A stretch of DNA of 24,427 bases from a virus: positions 1-24,427 of IMG/VR virus record IMGVR_UViG_3300037585_000006. One strand, 5' to 3'. This document shows positions 9,366 through 15,599 of the stretch, in pieces. The first letter of the stretch is position 1; every line of letters starts with the position of its first letter. Under the pieces are notes generated by a model. That model made no database searches, was not told the DNA's origin, and was given only the letters and a program-made list of their open reading frames with translations. Position numbers and translations under genes: made by a program.

Positions 9366-11588
9366 TTACCCGAAGGTTGCTTTCATTTGTCCACCACGAC
9401 GACGATCATCAAGCATAGACTTCTTGGTCATGTTAGCAATCTGTGGTGCAGCTTGTGCAATAATCCTCTTAACACTGTCGTCACCGTTAGCTTGGAAGTT
9501 GAAGTTCTGGACGACAGTAGTGCTACCGCCACCCTCTGCCTGTACACCTAGCTTACCGTTAGCACCTCTCTTGAGTGGCATGATAGCCTCTGGCCCAGCT
9601 TCACCCATGAGACCAGTCTTACCGCCAGCCATAGGGAACATAGTAGGTCCACTAAGAACACCACCGTCAGCGAAAGTTCTAATCTTTGGTCTTGGGGACG
9701 TAGCTGGTGCTGCGCTACCTGAGAAAGCCCCCATGATAGCACCTACAATGCCTGAGCCTGTTCCAGCTTTAGCATCGAAACTTCCTACAATCTGTTGTAC
9801 GACAAGAATCTCATATAGTTTTTTAATAATCTCTCTAGCCATGTCTTTAAAAGCATCTTTAACTGATTTAGTGCCTTCAATCATAGCCATAAAACCATTG
9901 CTCATTGAAGACTTAATAGTGTCGGCTAGGTCTTGAACTCTCTGTTGAGCTTCAGTTAAAGCGTCAGTGAGGCTTTTGCCATCTTTATCTTTATCTTTCT
10001 TACCAGTAAACCAAGAGGTTACATCAATACTACTGGTTTCATCCTTCAGTGCAGCAAACGCTTCTTTTAGTTTCTCTACAGCAGTTGTAGGTTTCTTAAG
10101 TCCAGCATCTAAGGATACCGCTTCCTTAAGCGCTTTCTGCATTGATTTGTTAGTTTCGTTTATAGTATTAGTAAGACCGCTTTTAATCGCCCCCACATAA
10201 TCCTTTTCCACAGCAGTCTTAACAGCCGCGCCAATCTTACCCACAGCCTCATCAATTGCCCCCGTAACGTTACCTCCTTCTATCTTAGAAGTATCAATAA
10301 CATCTTTAAAAGTTAGCTTCTCCATACGAAGTTTTTCACGTAGATAGTTGATACCTTGACCAATTAGTCCAGTAAATGCGTTGATTCCATTCGCTACAGC
10401 CATCTTAATGTTTTTAAATACTTCCACAAAAACACTAGGTAGAGTTTTGATATACTCTACTGCACCTGCAATAGCCCCTGCAAAATACCCAATAAACTTA
10501 TTTACGAAATCTGAATTAACTTTTGATAGAAGGTCTCTTAGAGCTTGAAGTACATTTAGTACGATTTGATAGAACGCAGCTTTGTTCATTTCGGAAAGCC
10601 ACTGAAGCCTACCTGCAATTTTACCAAGGATCTCAAAGAAGGCATCTTTAAGGAGTTCTAATAATGGCCCTACACCGCCTACAGCCTTAGACAACTTACC
10701 AAACATTAAAACAGCTTCGGCAACCAACACAATGATAGCCCCTATACCTGTCCTAATTATGGCTTTCCTCAAAAAAGCAAAAGCCCCAGCGAGAGAAAAG
10801 GTTGCAACTCTTGCAGCTATCAAACCCGCAACAAACTTACCACTAAACGCAGCAGCAGCGACTATTACATAAGTAGCTACCCTGTCTAAATTCTCCACTA
10901 ATACCTTCCCAAACTTAATCGCAACATCCGTAATAGCGGCTATAGTTTTTGCAATACCATCCAAGAGTGGTTTAATGGTAGACAGAGAGTCTAAGATATC
11001 TTTTTTCATTGCAGTAAAGCTAAAAGCCAAACCCTCTGCCTGTTCCTTAGATCGCAAGGCGGCTGTGACTAGAGACAGACCAATACCAAGAATAGCACCA
11101 CCGAGACCAGGCAAGAGTCCAGCAAGCTGTGTACCCTGTTGACCGAAAGCTACGAGTGCGTTGGTTCCACTTTGAACTTGAACATTAAAGTCACCAACCT
11201 GATAACCCACTTGTTGAGCTAACATCCCAAACCTGTTAGTAGATTTTCCTGACATTCTTTGTGCTTTTGTCAAGGCTTGTGCAGAGATAGCAGCCTTGCT
11301 GGTAGCAGCCGCTGTAGATTTAACGACAGTCTCTTGTTTCTTAATAGCTGCGTTTGCGTTAAGTAGAGACCCGTAAAGATTATCCTCAGCTTTATCTAGC
11401 TTCTGAATTGCCGCAGAGTATTGATCCCCACTTATTCGACCTTTATTGAAGGCATTATCAAGGAACTCCATAGCGTTTGTAAGTGCTTTAGCTTGAGCCG
11501 CTGCACCAACAACATCTCCAGCCAAGCCTTTTATTTCTTTGCTTACCTGATTTGCATTGGTAGAAATGATAATTGCTACATCAGACAT
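9366..11588 (-). CDS. Tail tape measure protein
   Basis: A 740-residue protein, the longest helical protein in the tail block. The N-terminal third is Ala/Lys-rich helix (NANAAIKKQETVVKSTAAAT). The middle holds hydrophobic segments (about 155-180 and 235-300, e.g. GAIIVLVAEAVLMFG). The C-terminal part ends with a Gly-rich tail: FADGGVLSGPTMFPMAGGKT and GEAGPEAIMPLKRG, the standard end of tape measure proteins. It sets tail length and helps DNA cross the inner membrane. At the usual 1.5 angstrom per residue, a tail of about 110 nm is expected (inference). It follows the chaperone frames with an 8-nt overlap and has GGGGGTG before the ATG. Confidence 0.93.
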   Translation of the reverse strand: MSDVAIIISTNANQVSKEIKGLAGDVVGAAAQAKALTNAMEFLDNAFNKGRISGDQYSAAIQKLDKAEDNLYGSLLNANAAIKKQETVVKSTAAATSKAAISAQALTKAQRMSGKSTNRFGMLAQQVGYQVGDFNVQVQSGTNALVAFGQQGTQLAGLLPGLGGAILGIGLSLVTAALRSKEQAEGLAFSFTAMKKDILDSLSTIKPLLDGIAKTIAAITDVAIKFGKVLVENLDRVATYVIVAAAAFSGKFVAGLIAARVATFSLAGAFAFLRKAIIRTGIGAIIVLVAEAVLMFGKLSKAVGGVGPLLELLKDAFFEILGKIAGRLQWLSEMNKAAFYQIVLNVLQALRDLLSKVNSDFVNKFIGYFAGAIAGAVEYIKTLPSVFVEVFKNIKMAVANGINAFTGLIGQGINYLREKLRMEKLTFKDVIDTSKIEGGNVTGAIDEAVGKIGAAVKTAVEKDYVGAIKSGLTNTINETNKSMQKALKEAVSLDAGLKKPTTAVEKLKEAFAALKDETSSIDVTSWFTGKKDKDKDGKSLTDALTEAQQRVQDLADTIKSSMSNGFMAMIEGTKSVKDAFKDMAREIIKKLYEILVVQQIVGSFDAKAGTGSGIVGAIMGAFSGSAAPATSPRPKIRTFADGGVLSGPTMFPMAGGKTGLMGEAGPEAIMPLKRGANGKLGVQAEGGGSTTVVQNFNFQANGDDSVKRIIAQAAPQIANMTKKSMLDDRRRGGQMKATFG

Positions 11589-11925
11589 TGTTTGTCACCC
11601 CCATATAGACGACATCTACTCTCTTAATTGTCTCCACTTCCCACGGGCTTAATGGAGTCTGCGTTGCCTGTTTCCAAGACTGTATTTCTGTATATGTAAT
11701 AGGGCTAGGACCAGAAAAACCAGAACCCCTTGTGTTGCTTAAAGTGATAAAGGCAGACCAGACATTAGCTAGGAGCAAAGGGAAGTCTGTCGGGGGTTCC
11801 AGTGCTTCAGGTCTACGTCCAATCTGCCTTTCTACTTGTTCTAGGTGTTCACGTTCTGTAATGCCATCTTTGTCAGGTAAGTTAAGTTTAAAGTTAAACT
11901 CAGCCCACGTACAAAGCTCTGACAC
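11581..11925 (-). CDS. Tail assembly chaperone, downstream (T-like) frame
   Basis: A 114-residue frame beginning at GTG 11925-11923, overlapping the stop of the upstream chaperone as TAGTG. It reads SELCTWAEFNFKLNLPDKDG, then HLEQVERQIGRRPEALEPP, DFPLLLANVWSAFITLSNTR and SWKQATQTPLSPWEVETIKR, a pattern matching small tail chaperone-type proteins encoded just before tape measure genes. The GTG has no well spaced Shine-Dalgarno. The same frame is open upstream to 11964 and encodes plausible sequence (NLSGFYEEVVSELCTWAEFN), so it may be made mainly as a -1 frameshift extension of the upstream gene, as in lambda G/GT. Independent coupled initiation at GTG remains possible. Confidence 0.78.
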   Translation of the reverse strand: MSELCTWAEFNFKLNLPDKDGITEREHLEQVERQIGRRPEALEPPTDFPLLLANVWSAFITLSNTRGSGFSGPSPITYTEIQSWKQATQTPLSPWEVETIKRVDVVYMGVTNNV

Positions 11926-12320
11926 TACTTCTTCGTAAAATCCAGAGAGGTTTTTAGAGCCTCCTCAATCTGATCTTTTATCCAGAACACCTCTTCGTAC
12001 ACTTCTTTAGCTTTAGTCAACTTAGGTGTCTCACCTTTATAAGTAATGTTCCAAGCCTTAGTTGTCTTAACAAGAACATCCAAAGACGACTGTTCGATAT
12101 CCTCAGCAGTAAAGTCTAATTCGTTCTTTCCAACACGCACCTTCTTCAACTGCTTGTTTGTCTGTTCGTGCATTGCAGATTTATAAACTTTAGAATGTGG
12201 TGCATACATAGTAATAACCATCGGGGTTTTATCATCATTCTTTAGCACTTCTTCTGTGTTTGGGTGAAGCAGTGTGACATCAACTGTGTCTTCAGAGGGT
12301 GTTAAATCTTGTAAATCCAT
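11925..12320 (-). CDS. Tail assembly chaperone, upstream (G-like) frame
   Basis: A 131-residue mostly helical, charged protein between tail tube and tape measure genes, the standard place of the G-like chaperone that coats the tape measure during tail assembly. Visible stretches: VDVTLLHPNTEEVLKNDDKT, MYAPHSKVYKSAMHEQTNKQ, KNELDFTAEDIEQSSLDVLV, WNITYKGETPKLTKAKEVYE and a helical end. AAGGA lies eight bases before the ATG. The upstream 140 bp contain a predicted pseudoknot and a duplicated 19-bp repeat, so its expression may be uncoupled from the tube protein. A minor fraction of ribosomes may shift to -1 near codon 123 to give a fusion of about 246 residues with the next frame. Confidence 0.82.
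   Translation of the reverse strand: MDLQDLTPSEDTVDVTLLHPNTEEVLKNDDKTPMVITMYAPHSKVYKSAMHEQTNKQLKKVRVGKNELDFTAEDIEQSSLDVLVKTTKAWNITYKGETPKLTKAKEVYEEVFWIKDQIEEALKTSLDFTKK
11949..11957 (-). other. Candidate -1 ribosomal frameshift site in tail chaperone genes
   Basis: On the minus strand the zero frame reads CTA AAA ACC. The run of five A lets the AAA codon re-pair after a one-base slip, and the -1 frame then continues through 11925 into the downstream chaperone. The -1 frame is closed by a TGA at 11967-11965 and the zero frame by TAG at 11927-11925, so any shift must occur in this window of about 40 nt. It is not a perfect X XXY YYZ heptamer. Confidence concerns the exact site; the shift itself is more likely than the site. 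Confidence 0.4.
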
Positions 12321-12338
12321 GTCGAGTTCCTTCGGGAG

Positions 12339-12384
12339 TTATGATTTTTACGCCATAACGTAAGTTTATGATTTTTACGTCATA
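12339..12384. repeat. Two direct copies of a 19-bp operator-like element
   Basis: TTATGATTTTTACGCCATA at 12339-12357 and TTATGATTTTTACGTCATA at 12366-12384 differ at one base and are spaced 27 bp start to start. Each is itself a partial dyad (TATGA...TCATA). Between them TTACG and CGTAA form a further inverted repeat. They lie in the leader of the tail chaperone gene, 19 to 64 bp upstream of its start. A protein-binding site pair or an RNA hairpin pair are both possible. Confidence 0.7.
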
Positions 12385-12393
12385 GAGTAATTT

Positions 12394-12443
12394 GTCGGGT
12401 GATTAAAACGTGGAGACCCCCGACCCGACTCAGGAGTCCCCAC
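12394..12443 (-). ncRNA. Predicted H-type pseudoknot / terminator-like structure after the tail tube gene
   Basis: On the minus transcript the bases from 12443 down to 12433 pair with those from 12420 down to 12410: an 11-bp stem with two G-U pairs. Its 12-nt loop contains GUCGGGU (12429-12423), which is fully complementary to ACCCGAC (12400-12394) downstream. Loop 1 is UGA, the junction is CG and loop 3 is GUUUUAAUC, a geometry suited to an H-type pseudoknot. The first stem followed by GUUUU also resembles a weak intrinsic terminator. It is in the 140-bp gap between the tail tube and chaperone genes. Folding is by eye. Confidence 0.55.
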
Positions 12444-12461
12444 TTACCTAGCTAGGTATTC

Positions 12462-13373
12462 TTATGATGGGCGTGTGATCTTAAGGTTAGTATCTTCTGT
12501 TGTGTCATATAGAGCAACAAAAGACATATTAACCATACGGCTAGTTGGTCCATCGACGCCAACATCAGCAGAGTTAATCTTGACCCGTGGGAATTGGAAT
12601 GTGTGTGCATTAGCTCCTGTAGGGTCATCCACAGACACTTCAATCTCAGTTTCAGTCTCGTTGAGGAAACGGTTGATAAGTGCTGCATCCTCAAAGTAGG
12701 CTGTGAGCGTACCTTCGACTTCTGCACGACCATACTCAAGTGATGGTGCGCTATCATCGCCAATTACGAAGGTGGGGGCAAAAGAGTTAGTTAAGGTGAA
12801 GTCTAGTGCAGTTACGATAGCTACAGCAGATGCACCACCTACGTTACCGATAGAAATGTCACCTGAGTAAGCATCAAAGGGTGCAGCACCAGATGCAGCG
12901 TTCTGTGTCTTCTGTGTAGCACCGATAGTCATGTCCTTACCAACCATGCCGAAGGTAGTTGCTACCATCTGGTTAGGCGCAAGAGATATACCCATAGTGG
13001 AAACTGACAGACCCGTGAATAAACGAGCTTGGTCAATGTCAGCAGCGTAGTCTTCTATAGAGAAGAACTTAGGTGCAACGCCAACTTTAAGGACATTAGT
13101 TGCCCAAGTGTTTAACATAGCTGACTCAAGGAAAGCATCGTAGTCGCCATCTCGTAGGTCAACTACAATATCACCGCCTACTTGACGGTTACCGTGACGA
13201 TCTACGCGAGGCATACGGTCAGCTTGAATATCATTACCAGCTACACGATCTTTAGTGAGGTTCAAAGAGTGTGTGCTGAAGGGAAGATTAGTAAAGTCGC
13301 CAGCAGGTGTTGTACCAAACGTAGATTCTACGATGAACGACAGACTGGAGCGTGAGCCTTGTGCGAAAGCCAT
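12462..13373 (-). CDS. Major tail tube protein
   Basis: A 303-residue protein with the signature of siphovirus tail tube proteins of the TTP_13-like type: it starts MAFAQGSRSSLSFIVESTFG, continues with STHSLNLTKDRVAGNDIQAD and DRHGNRQVGGDIVVDLRDGD, and has the paired beta-sandwich halves (MVATTFGMVGKDMTIGATQK; ALDFTLTNSFAPTFVIGDD). It polymerises as rings around the tape measure to form the tail tube. AGGAG lies seven bases before the ATG. It follows the tail terminator gene and is itself followed by a gap with a strong RNA structure, as expected for a highly expressed gene whose transcript is insulated from lower-level chaperone genes. Confidence 0.9.
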   Translation of the reverse strand: MAFAQGSRSSLSFIVESTFGTTPAGDFTNLPFSTHSLNLTKDRVAGNDIQADRMPRVDRHGNRQVGGDIVVDLRDGDYDAFLESAMLNTWATNVLKVGVAPKFFSIEDYAADIDQARLFTGLSVSTMGISLAPNQMVATTFGMVGKDMTIGATQKTQNAASGAAPFDAYSGDISIGNVGGASAVAIVTALDFTLTNSFAPTFVIGDDSAPSLEYGRAEVEGTLTAYFEDAALINRFLNETETEIEVSVDDPTGANAHTFQFPRVKINSADVGVDGPTSRMVNMSFVALYDTTEDTNLKITRPS

Positions 13374-15501: not shown

Positions 15502-15552
15502 GAGACTACTCCGTTATGTAAGGATACTGTTATGTTCTTTTATAAGTTGGGT

Positions 15553-15580
15553 GGAACCCCAAGTCTAAGCTCAGGGTTCC
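15553..15580 (-). terminator. Strong hairpin after the major capsid gene
   Basis: On the minus transcript GGAACCC (15580-15574) pairs with GGGUUCC (15559-15553), and the stem extends inward by UGAG/CUUG with two G-U pairs, leaving loop CUUAGA. The wobble pairs work only in the minus-strand RNA, supporting a role in that transcript. There is no U-run after it, so it may be a 3'-end stabiliser, processing site or attenuator rather than a full intrinsic terminator. It lies 20-47 nt past the capsid stop. Confidence 0.6.
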
Positions 15581-15599
15581 CCGTTAGTATAGTGTAGGC

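Follow-up and report, generated by a model that had tools for sequence, protein, structure and literature searches.

The window, by which we mean the whole analysed stretch of 24,427 nucleotides from IMG/VR record IMGVR_UViG_3300037585_000006, encodes on its minus strand a tail tube gene (12462..13373). This identity had been proposed from the letters alone and is borne out by matches to Pfam Phage_tube_2 (E=4.9e-45) and phrog_290 (E=1.2e-68). The stop codon of the gene, TAA (12464-12462), is followed on the same strand by the element described here, which makes up the tube 3' UTR, and then by a gene at 11925..12320 with its start codon at 12320-12318. The preliminary description had called this downstream gene a chaperone. 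The ORF itself has no Pfam or PHROG match, but the next one (11581-11925) matches Phage_TAC_18 (E=1.5e-17), and because of this neighbour and the gene order we retain the name and treat 11925..12320 as the presumed gpG-like tail assembly chaperone. The two ORFs overlap by 1 base on the minus strand, and a short T run precedes the first chaperone stop in the window and in relatives (GGATTTTACGAAG, TTTTTTGAAG); a programmed frameshift of the gpG/gpGT type is likely.

Direct reading of the sequence confirmed all the bases of the pseudoknot proposed at 12394-12443. On the minus strand, GTGGGGACTCC (12443-12433) pairs with GGGGTCTCCAC (12420-12410), including two G-U pairs, GTCGGGT lies in the loop (12429-12423), and ACCCGAC (12400-12394) comes 9 nt after the stem. 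The H-type geometry stands, but the proposed stem of 11 bp with loops of 3, 2 and 9 nt has to be replaced by one of 13 bp with loops of 1, 0 and 9 nt, as stem 1 gains two pairs (U-G and G-C; 12431-12443 with 12410-12422) and the loop is reduced to 8 nt (A + GUCGGGU). Read along the minus strand, the predicted fold begins with a short hairpin, P0 (UACCU-AGCU-AGGUA, 12445..12458), followed by the 5' arm of stem 1, P1 (GUGGGGACUCCUG, 12431..12443), and loop 1 (12430..12430, 1 nt). The loop heptamer GUCGGGU (12423..12429), which was invariant in the first 159 gaps read, forms the 5' arm of stem 2, P2. It is followed by the 3' arm of P1 (CGGGGGUCUCCAC, 12410..12422), by loop 3 (GUUUUAAUC, 9 nt, 12401..12409), whose length, sequence and U run are not conserved in relatives, and by site 1, the 3' arm of P2 (ACCCGAC, 12394..12400).

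Among 400 dinucleotide-shuffled windows, a stem of at least 10 bp with a 7-nt loop match arose in 22; raising the minimum stem length to 12 bp left 4. Taken alone, the window makes the pseudoknot mildly improbable by chance, which is suggestive and not decisive; for the reality of the predicted fold, the comparison with relatives is decisive.

Several other repeats and hairpins were observed near this locus. After the pseudoknot stand two 27-nt tandem units (12339..12392, minus strand) of the type TTACG-TATGR-CGTAA-TCATA, the unit reading TTACG-C-TATGA-CGTAA-AGA-TCATA. They are an accessory insertion, found in 0, 1 or 2 copies in relatives. Each unit could form a small H-type pseudoknot or hairpin, and in one relative (L035) a TATGG/CCATA pair within the unit is compensated. 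Such units also occur in other gene gaps of unrelated roseophages (SIO1, NC_002519, 22228-22278; Octadecabacter DB virus 2, MW805364, 25002-25055), and are possibly a small mobile repeat. In L243 and L253, different AT-rich repeat units (TATGACCTAAGTGTCATA) lie between the tube stop codon and P0. The post-capsid gap (window 15502-15599, minus strand) contains a conserved hairpin, GGAACCC...GGGGUUCC, and then ACCCAA, which is complementary to UUGGG of the hairpin's own 3' arm; this gap can form two mutually exclusive hairpins, which are kept across relatives.

Distribution among relatives and covariation of the fold

Relatives were collected by scanning IMG/VR with five tube proteins, which yielded several hundred loci, some contigs being fetched repeatedly. 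The nearest named phage to the window is Roseobacter phage CRP-6, which infects a Roseobacter RCA strain and represents a type reported to be ubiquitous in the ocean (PMC6918029). Of the fetched tube–chaperone gaps, 239 have a recognisable GTCGGGT-type loop, and 236 of these also have the downstream partner. The three copies lacking it comprise two loci cut by the contig end (L005, L141) and one with an inserted gene (L130); a further few loci stop short of the loop (e.g., L107). The insertion in L130 is an ORF with HNH-endonuclease-like residues, as judged by eye, which starts at about 3115 and lies between P1 and the chaperone gene; site 1 is lost there, and part of the chaperone start is duplicated. 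The element is kept down to 44% tube identity (L322), with the loop heptamer sitting 30-63 nt past the tube stop codon among the relatives.

A covariance model run over 82 sources (about 0.49 Mb) recovered the element once per locus and always in the tube–chaperone gap, with a single weak extra hit (E 0.28). The complete CRP-6 genome holds it once, its other hit being at E 5.1, and the search for a second copy elsewhere in CRP-6 or the window gave only matches at E>4. Bacterial genomes searched with the L159 tube gave no match. Six annotated tube relatives of 33-36% identity (Vibrio, Pseudomonas, Acinetobacter, Serratia) have gaps measuring roughly -4 to 28 nt that lack the element; a seventh, an unannotated Variovorax tube relative, had no element match either. 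An ancient trait of all phages with this tube fold is not supported by these 0/7 distant relatives; as far as sequence comparison goes, the element arose in the CRP-6-like lineage or was lost elsewhere.

The sequence of P1 is entirely unlike between clades, as seen in the window (GUGGGGACUCCUG/CGGGGGUCUCCAC) versus CRP-6 (GGGGAGUGUCGG/CUGACGCUCCCC), and in further versions in L137 (GGGGCUGGUGCU/GGCGCUGGCCCC) and L322 (GGGCUACUGGAUU/GGUCCGGUAGCCC). Despite this replacement, 37 of the 39 representatives retain a P1 of 12-13 bp. Loop 1 has a length of 1-2 nt in 37/39 and loop 2 one of 0 nt in 36/39, while loop 3 is mostly 8-15 nt, in a measurement that misplaced some site-1 positions whose true places are visible by eye (L150, L161). 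Exceptions to this geometry are the L243, L201, L315 and L318 types, and a loop 3 of 4-5 nt was assigned in a few representatives (L135, L136), where a second ACCCGAT lies further on. In L034 the stem is different and longer and loop 3 is enlarged by an additional hairpin, with ACCCGAC still coming after it. Counted in this way, loop 1 crosses 6-7 bp with 1-2 nt, loop 2 has 0 nt and loop 3 runs alongside a stem of 12-13 bp, which is sterically possible for an H-type pseudoknot.

Covariation was measured in an alignment of 26 diverse sequences (A1), into which L322 was entered without its loop-3 hairpin. The score was 0.601, compared with 0.191 after shuffling, and slid controls did not exceed 0.263; none of 500 shuffles reached the observed values. 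Two-sided changes were present in 18 of the 24 pairs (5/5 in P0, 12/12 in P1 and 1 in P2). Clades with a 2-nt loop 1 sit one column off register in A1, and the P1 figures are therefore conservative. In their own register, the P1 cells of the 26 copies comprise 234 Watson-Crick, 77 G-U, 0 A-C and 1 other; only the coding-strand RNA would therefore fold, which bears out the minus-strand folding claimed earlier. The P0 stem is also rewritten in relatives, with loops AGCU or ACGU in most clades and GCAA/GUAA (GNRA type) or UUCG in others, and such loop variants favour a hairpin in RNA over a palindrome in DNA. A DNA-level site, whether a dyad, a recombination site or a protein site, was rejected on account of the G-U cells without A-C in P1 and the RNA tetraloops of P0.

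Stem 2 varies little, with 98.9% of its cells paired in the 26 sequences, and is near-invariant outside the following changes. A compensated change joins loop TTCGGGT with ACCCGAA (L215, L217, L220), and L218 (loop GTCGGGT, ACCCGAA) is a plausible intermediate. Changes to G-U pairs give ACCCGAU, AUCCGAC and ACCCGGC, and the loop reads GTCGGGC in the L243 and L315-L318 groups. In the L315-L318 clade, P2 is re-registered and longer (GTGTCGGG with TCCGACAC), the helix being shifted to GUGUCGGG with UCCGACAC. The preliminary description had looked to covariation in both stems for support; stem 1 is rewritten with compensation at all 12 pairs, and stem 2 offers one clear compensated change and the re-registered L315-L318 version. 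Both stems are backed by comparison, which shows a predicted H-type pseudoknot with P0, selected at the RNA level on the coding strand. The predicted element is a conserved, lineage-specific structured RNA of the tube–chaperone gap in CRP-6-like marine phages.

Termination, frameshifting and the complementarity of the loop to start sites

The element was initially interpreted as an intrinsic terminator, perhaps switchable by pseudoknot formation. The GC-rich hairpin of such a terminator is present, and among the terminator-like sites that the scan found in the window the element exceeds all others in length and GC content, with GTTTTAAT after a long GC-rich stem. However, there is no conserved U-rich tract right after the hairpin. 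Of the 39 representatives, 5, among them the window, have at least 5 T among the 8 nt that follow P1, and 25 have 1-3 T, whereas P1, the loop and site 1 are conserved. A switchable terminator is not supported as the conserved function, and we consider this reading quite unlikely; a conserved terminator across the family was rejected for its missing U tract. Local termination in the window is possible, but conservation does not extend to it.

With its long stem 1, the element resembles the IBV-type frameshift pseudoknot and could be imagined to stimulate frameshifting or read-through of the tube gene. Against this, the reading frames after the stop are unconserved in all three frames (0 to 62 codons), no shared slippery site was seen, and P1 is too far past the stop codon. 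Such a role is highly improbable and was rejected, as no conserved reading follows the tube stop.

Further complements of the loop lie at the chaperone start. Site 2, UCCCGA (12337-12332, read directly), continues into the chaperone's Shine-Dalgarno, AAGGA (12332-12328), so that the two span 12328..12337 on the minus strand; CCGA ahead of the Shine-Dalgarno is frequent, not universal, in relatives. Site 3, ACUCGAC (12321..12327, minus strand), lies between the Shine-Dalgarno and the AUG and forms 7 pairs with the loop GUCGGGU, one of them G-U. This further complement of the loop, at the start codon of the chaperone, had escaped the preliminary view of the downstream region, and it is this sequence, not a U-rich tail, that is conserved downstream. 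The corresponding spacers of relatives read ACUCGAC, ACCCGAY, ACCUGAC, AACCGAC or CCCCGAC, all loop-complementary, and the common variants ACUCGAC, ACCUGAC and ACCCGAU are ACCCGAC with C to U changes that preserve pairing. A site-3-like complement is absent from all 26 other listed starts in the window.

Distinct start regions were then compared by class, with ORF starts called by simple rules and class membership approximate. Runs of 5 or more Watson-Crick pairs with the loop of the same genome were present in 35/62 chaperone, 20/53 post-capsid and 1/409 other starts; with G-U allowed and a run of at least 6, the numbers were 57/62, 23/53 and 50/409, the first being the distinct chaperone start regions with the complementarity expected between a translational operator and its start site. 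In L222, the complement has slid across the AUG (AUGCCCGACC), as would be expected of a pairing target and not of a fixed signal. Duplex energies of the loop with site 1 and with site 3 are similar, about -10 to -14 kcal/mol in most. The comparison shows the predicted loop to be complementary to the chaperone ribosome-binding site or start codon in nearly all relatives.

The reading that we favour, with roughly even confidence, is a translational control element whose loop would pair either with the start site or with a decoy arm close by. We infer alternative partners for the loop, site 1 or site 3, and with them both the repression and what shifts it. Pairing with site 1 would leave the chaperone start open, while pairing with site 3 would cover the spacer and the AUG and block initiation. 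In this way one message would yield far less of the low-copy chaperone than of the abundant tube protein, and ribosomes finishing the tube gene, or a factor, might shift the balance. Some points weigh against such translational control. The complementarity of site 3 shows a potential partner rather than one in use; the G-U-allowed background is higher, with the 50/409 other starts reaching at least 6 pairs; and site 1 is nearer, so that site 3 might find no partner if the pseudoknot is a strong default. In addition, the motif at the post-capsid gene (~40% of distinct start regions) has no GUCGGG hairpin nearby, so it may answer to a trans factor.

Relative to the tube stop, this post-capsid gene is at about -2.9 to -3.1 kb. 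Its Shine-Dalgarno–AUG spacer carries a CCCGAC-type motif in L085, L102, L162, L279 and others, with no such hairpin nearby; in L315, L318 and L322 the complement is inside the first codons, and the window and its near relatives have no post-capsid copy (AUGCACCCUACA). A start-site motif without a local loop, as well as the nearly invariant loop heptamer, would suit ACCCGAC and GUCGGGU as binding sites of a trans-acting factor (a phage RNA-binding protein or a host small RNA), with P1 presenting one copy and mutual pairing secondary. We regard this as unlikely, considering that changes in the loop and site 1 (L215, L315-L318) leave the two complementary and that a loop 1 of 1-2 nt and a loop 2 of 0 nt suit an H-type pseudoknot. 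A more far-reaching proposal, which we hold to be doubtful, is that the tube 3' UTR acts as an antisense loop (GUCGGGU) controlling both the chaperone and the post-capsid start ~3 kb upstream, with site 1 as a built-in decoy that hides the loop, and that a small RNA released from this 3' UTR possibly acts in trans. If true, the antisense loop would be an RNA-made dosage governor of structural genes.

It is also possible, though we would not expect it, that P0 and the pseudoknot serve as a 3' UTR stabiliser, blocking 3'-5' exonucleases or marking a processed 3' end and lengthening the life of the tube mRNA relative to the downstream mRNA. The element always stands directly after the tube stop codon, P0 has stable GNRA or UUCG tetraloops in some clades, and the capsid gene likewise ends in stable hairpins, in part UUCG-capped. 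The L315-L318 clade keeps the linkage to the tube gene though its chaperone start is far further downstream. L315-L318 and L326 have a promoter-like TTGACA-N16/17-TATNTA downstream of the element and ahead of the chaperone start; part of the chaperone mRNA there would therefore lack the loop, which also counts against translational control. Because the element hugs the tube stop and is followed by this promoter-like site, the stabiliser stays a serious rival. However, it leaves the site 3 complementarity unexplained, and also the near-invariant heptamer, since any stem-2 sequence would do. Stabilising and translational roles could coexist.

Relation to known elements and significance

No Rfam family reached its gathering score across the whole window, and in the element region at E<=10 only a chance snoRNA hit on the other strand was obtained (E 7.8). 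Literature searches on phage pseudoknots at tail or intergenic sites, which mainly covered non-subscription journals, found no relevant description, and the CRP-6 paper makes no mention of a pseudoknot, terminator, promoter or RNA structure. These searches agree with the initial statement that no element of this kind had been described at this place.

The autoregulatory pseudoknot of T4 gene 32 is ~28 nt long, is bound by gp32, is followed by UUAAA repeats, and can adjoin the homing endonuclease gene segG (PMC535899). Both are compact phage mRNA pseudoknots upstream of a Shine-Dalgarno, that of T4 acting in translational control, and the HNH-like ORF beside the element in L130 resembles the segG neighbour. 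Unlike the T4 pseudoknot, the present element has a stem 1 of 12-13 bp, stands after a tube gene and shows a conserved start-site match to its loop, with no repressor known here. In repZ of ColIb-P9 and IncB, in work of Asano and Mizobuchi from 1998, a loop reportedly pairs with a complement near the ribosome-binding site and activates repZ, and an antisense RNA competes. The arrangement in these IncI-alpha/IncB plasmids is similar in having a hairpin loop and a short complement near a downstream ribosome-binding site, after an upstream reading frame; it differs in that two or three complements are present here, one between the Shine-Dalgarno and the AUG, and an antisense RNA is known only for repZ. 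The T4 gene 32 operator and the loop–ribosome-binding-site pseudoknot of repZ may be regarded as the nearest working analogues.

Conserved phage RNA structures that follow a major structural gene include, besides the present element, the Mu-gpT-DE RNA motif (RF03012), which lies downstream of the Mu gpT head gene, but the host phages and the structure differ and the window has no Rfam match. The GC-rich hairpin after the tube gene resembles the intrinsic terminators that follow abundant phage structural genes; unlike these, it has no conserved U tract, and its loop and partner arm are conserved. The fold, rebuilt many times with compensation, and the match of its loop to the next start site point to a control RNA not described before, and less to a mere stop of transcription.

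Unequal amounts of neighbouring virion proteins made from one message are mostly explained by start-site strength, terminators and frameshifts. The tube–chaperone boundary of abundant marine phages carries a widespread, strongly covarying element with an explicit base-pairing prediction that can be tested by swap mutants, and this element is a ready candidate for a new Rfam family.
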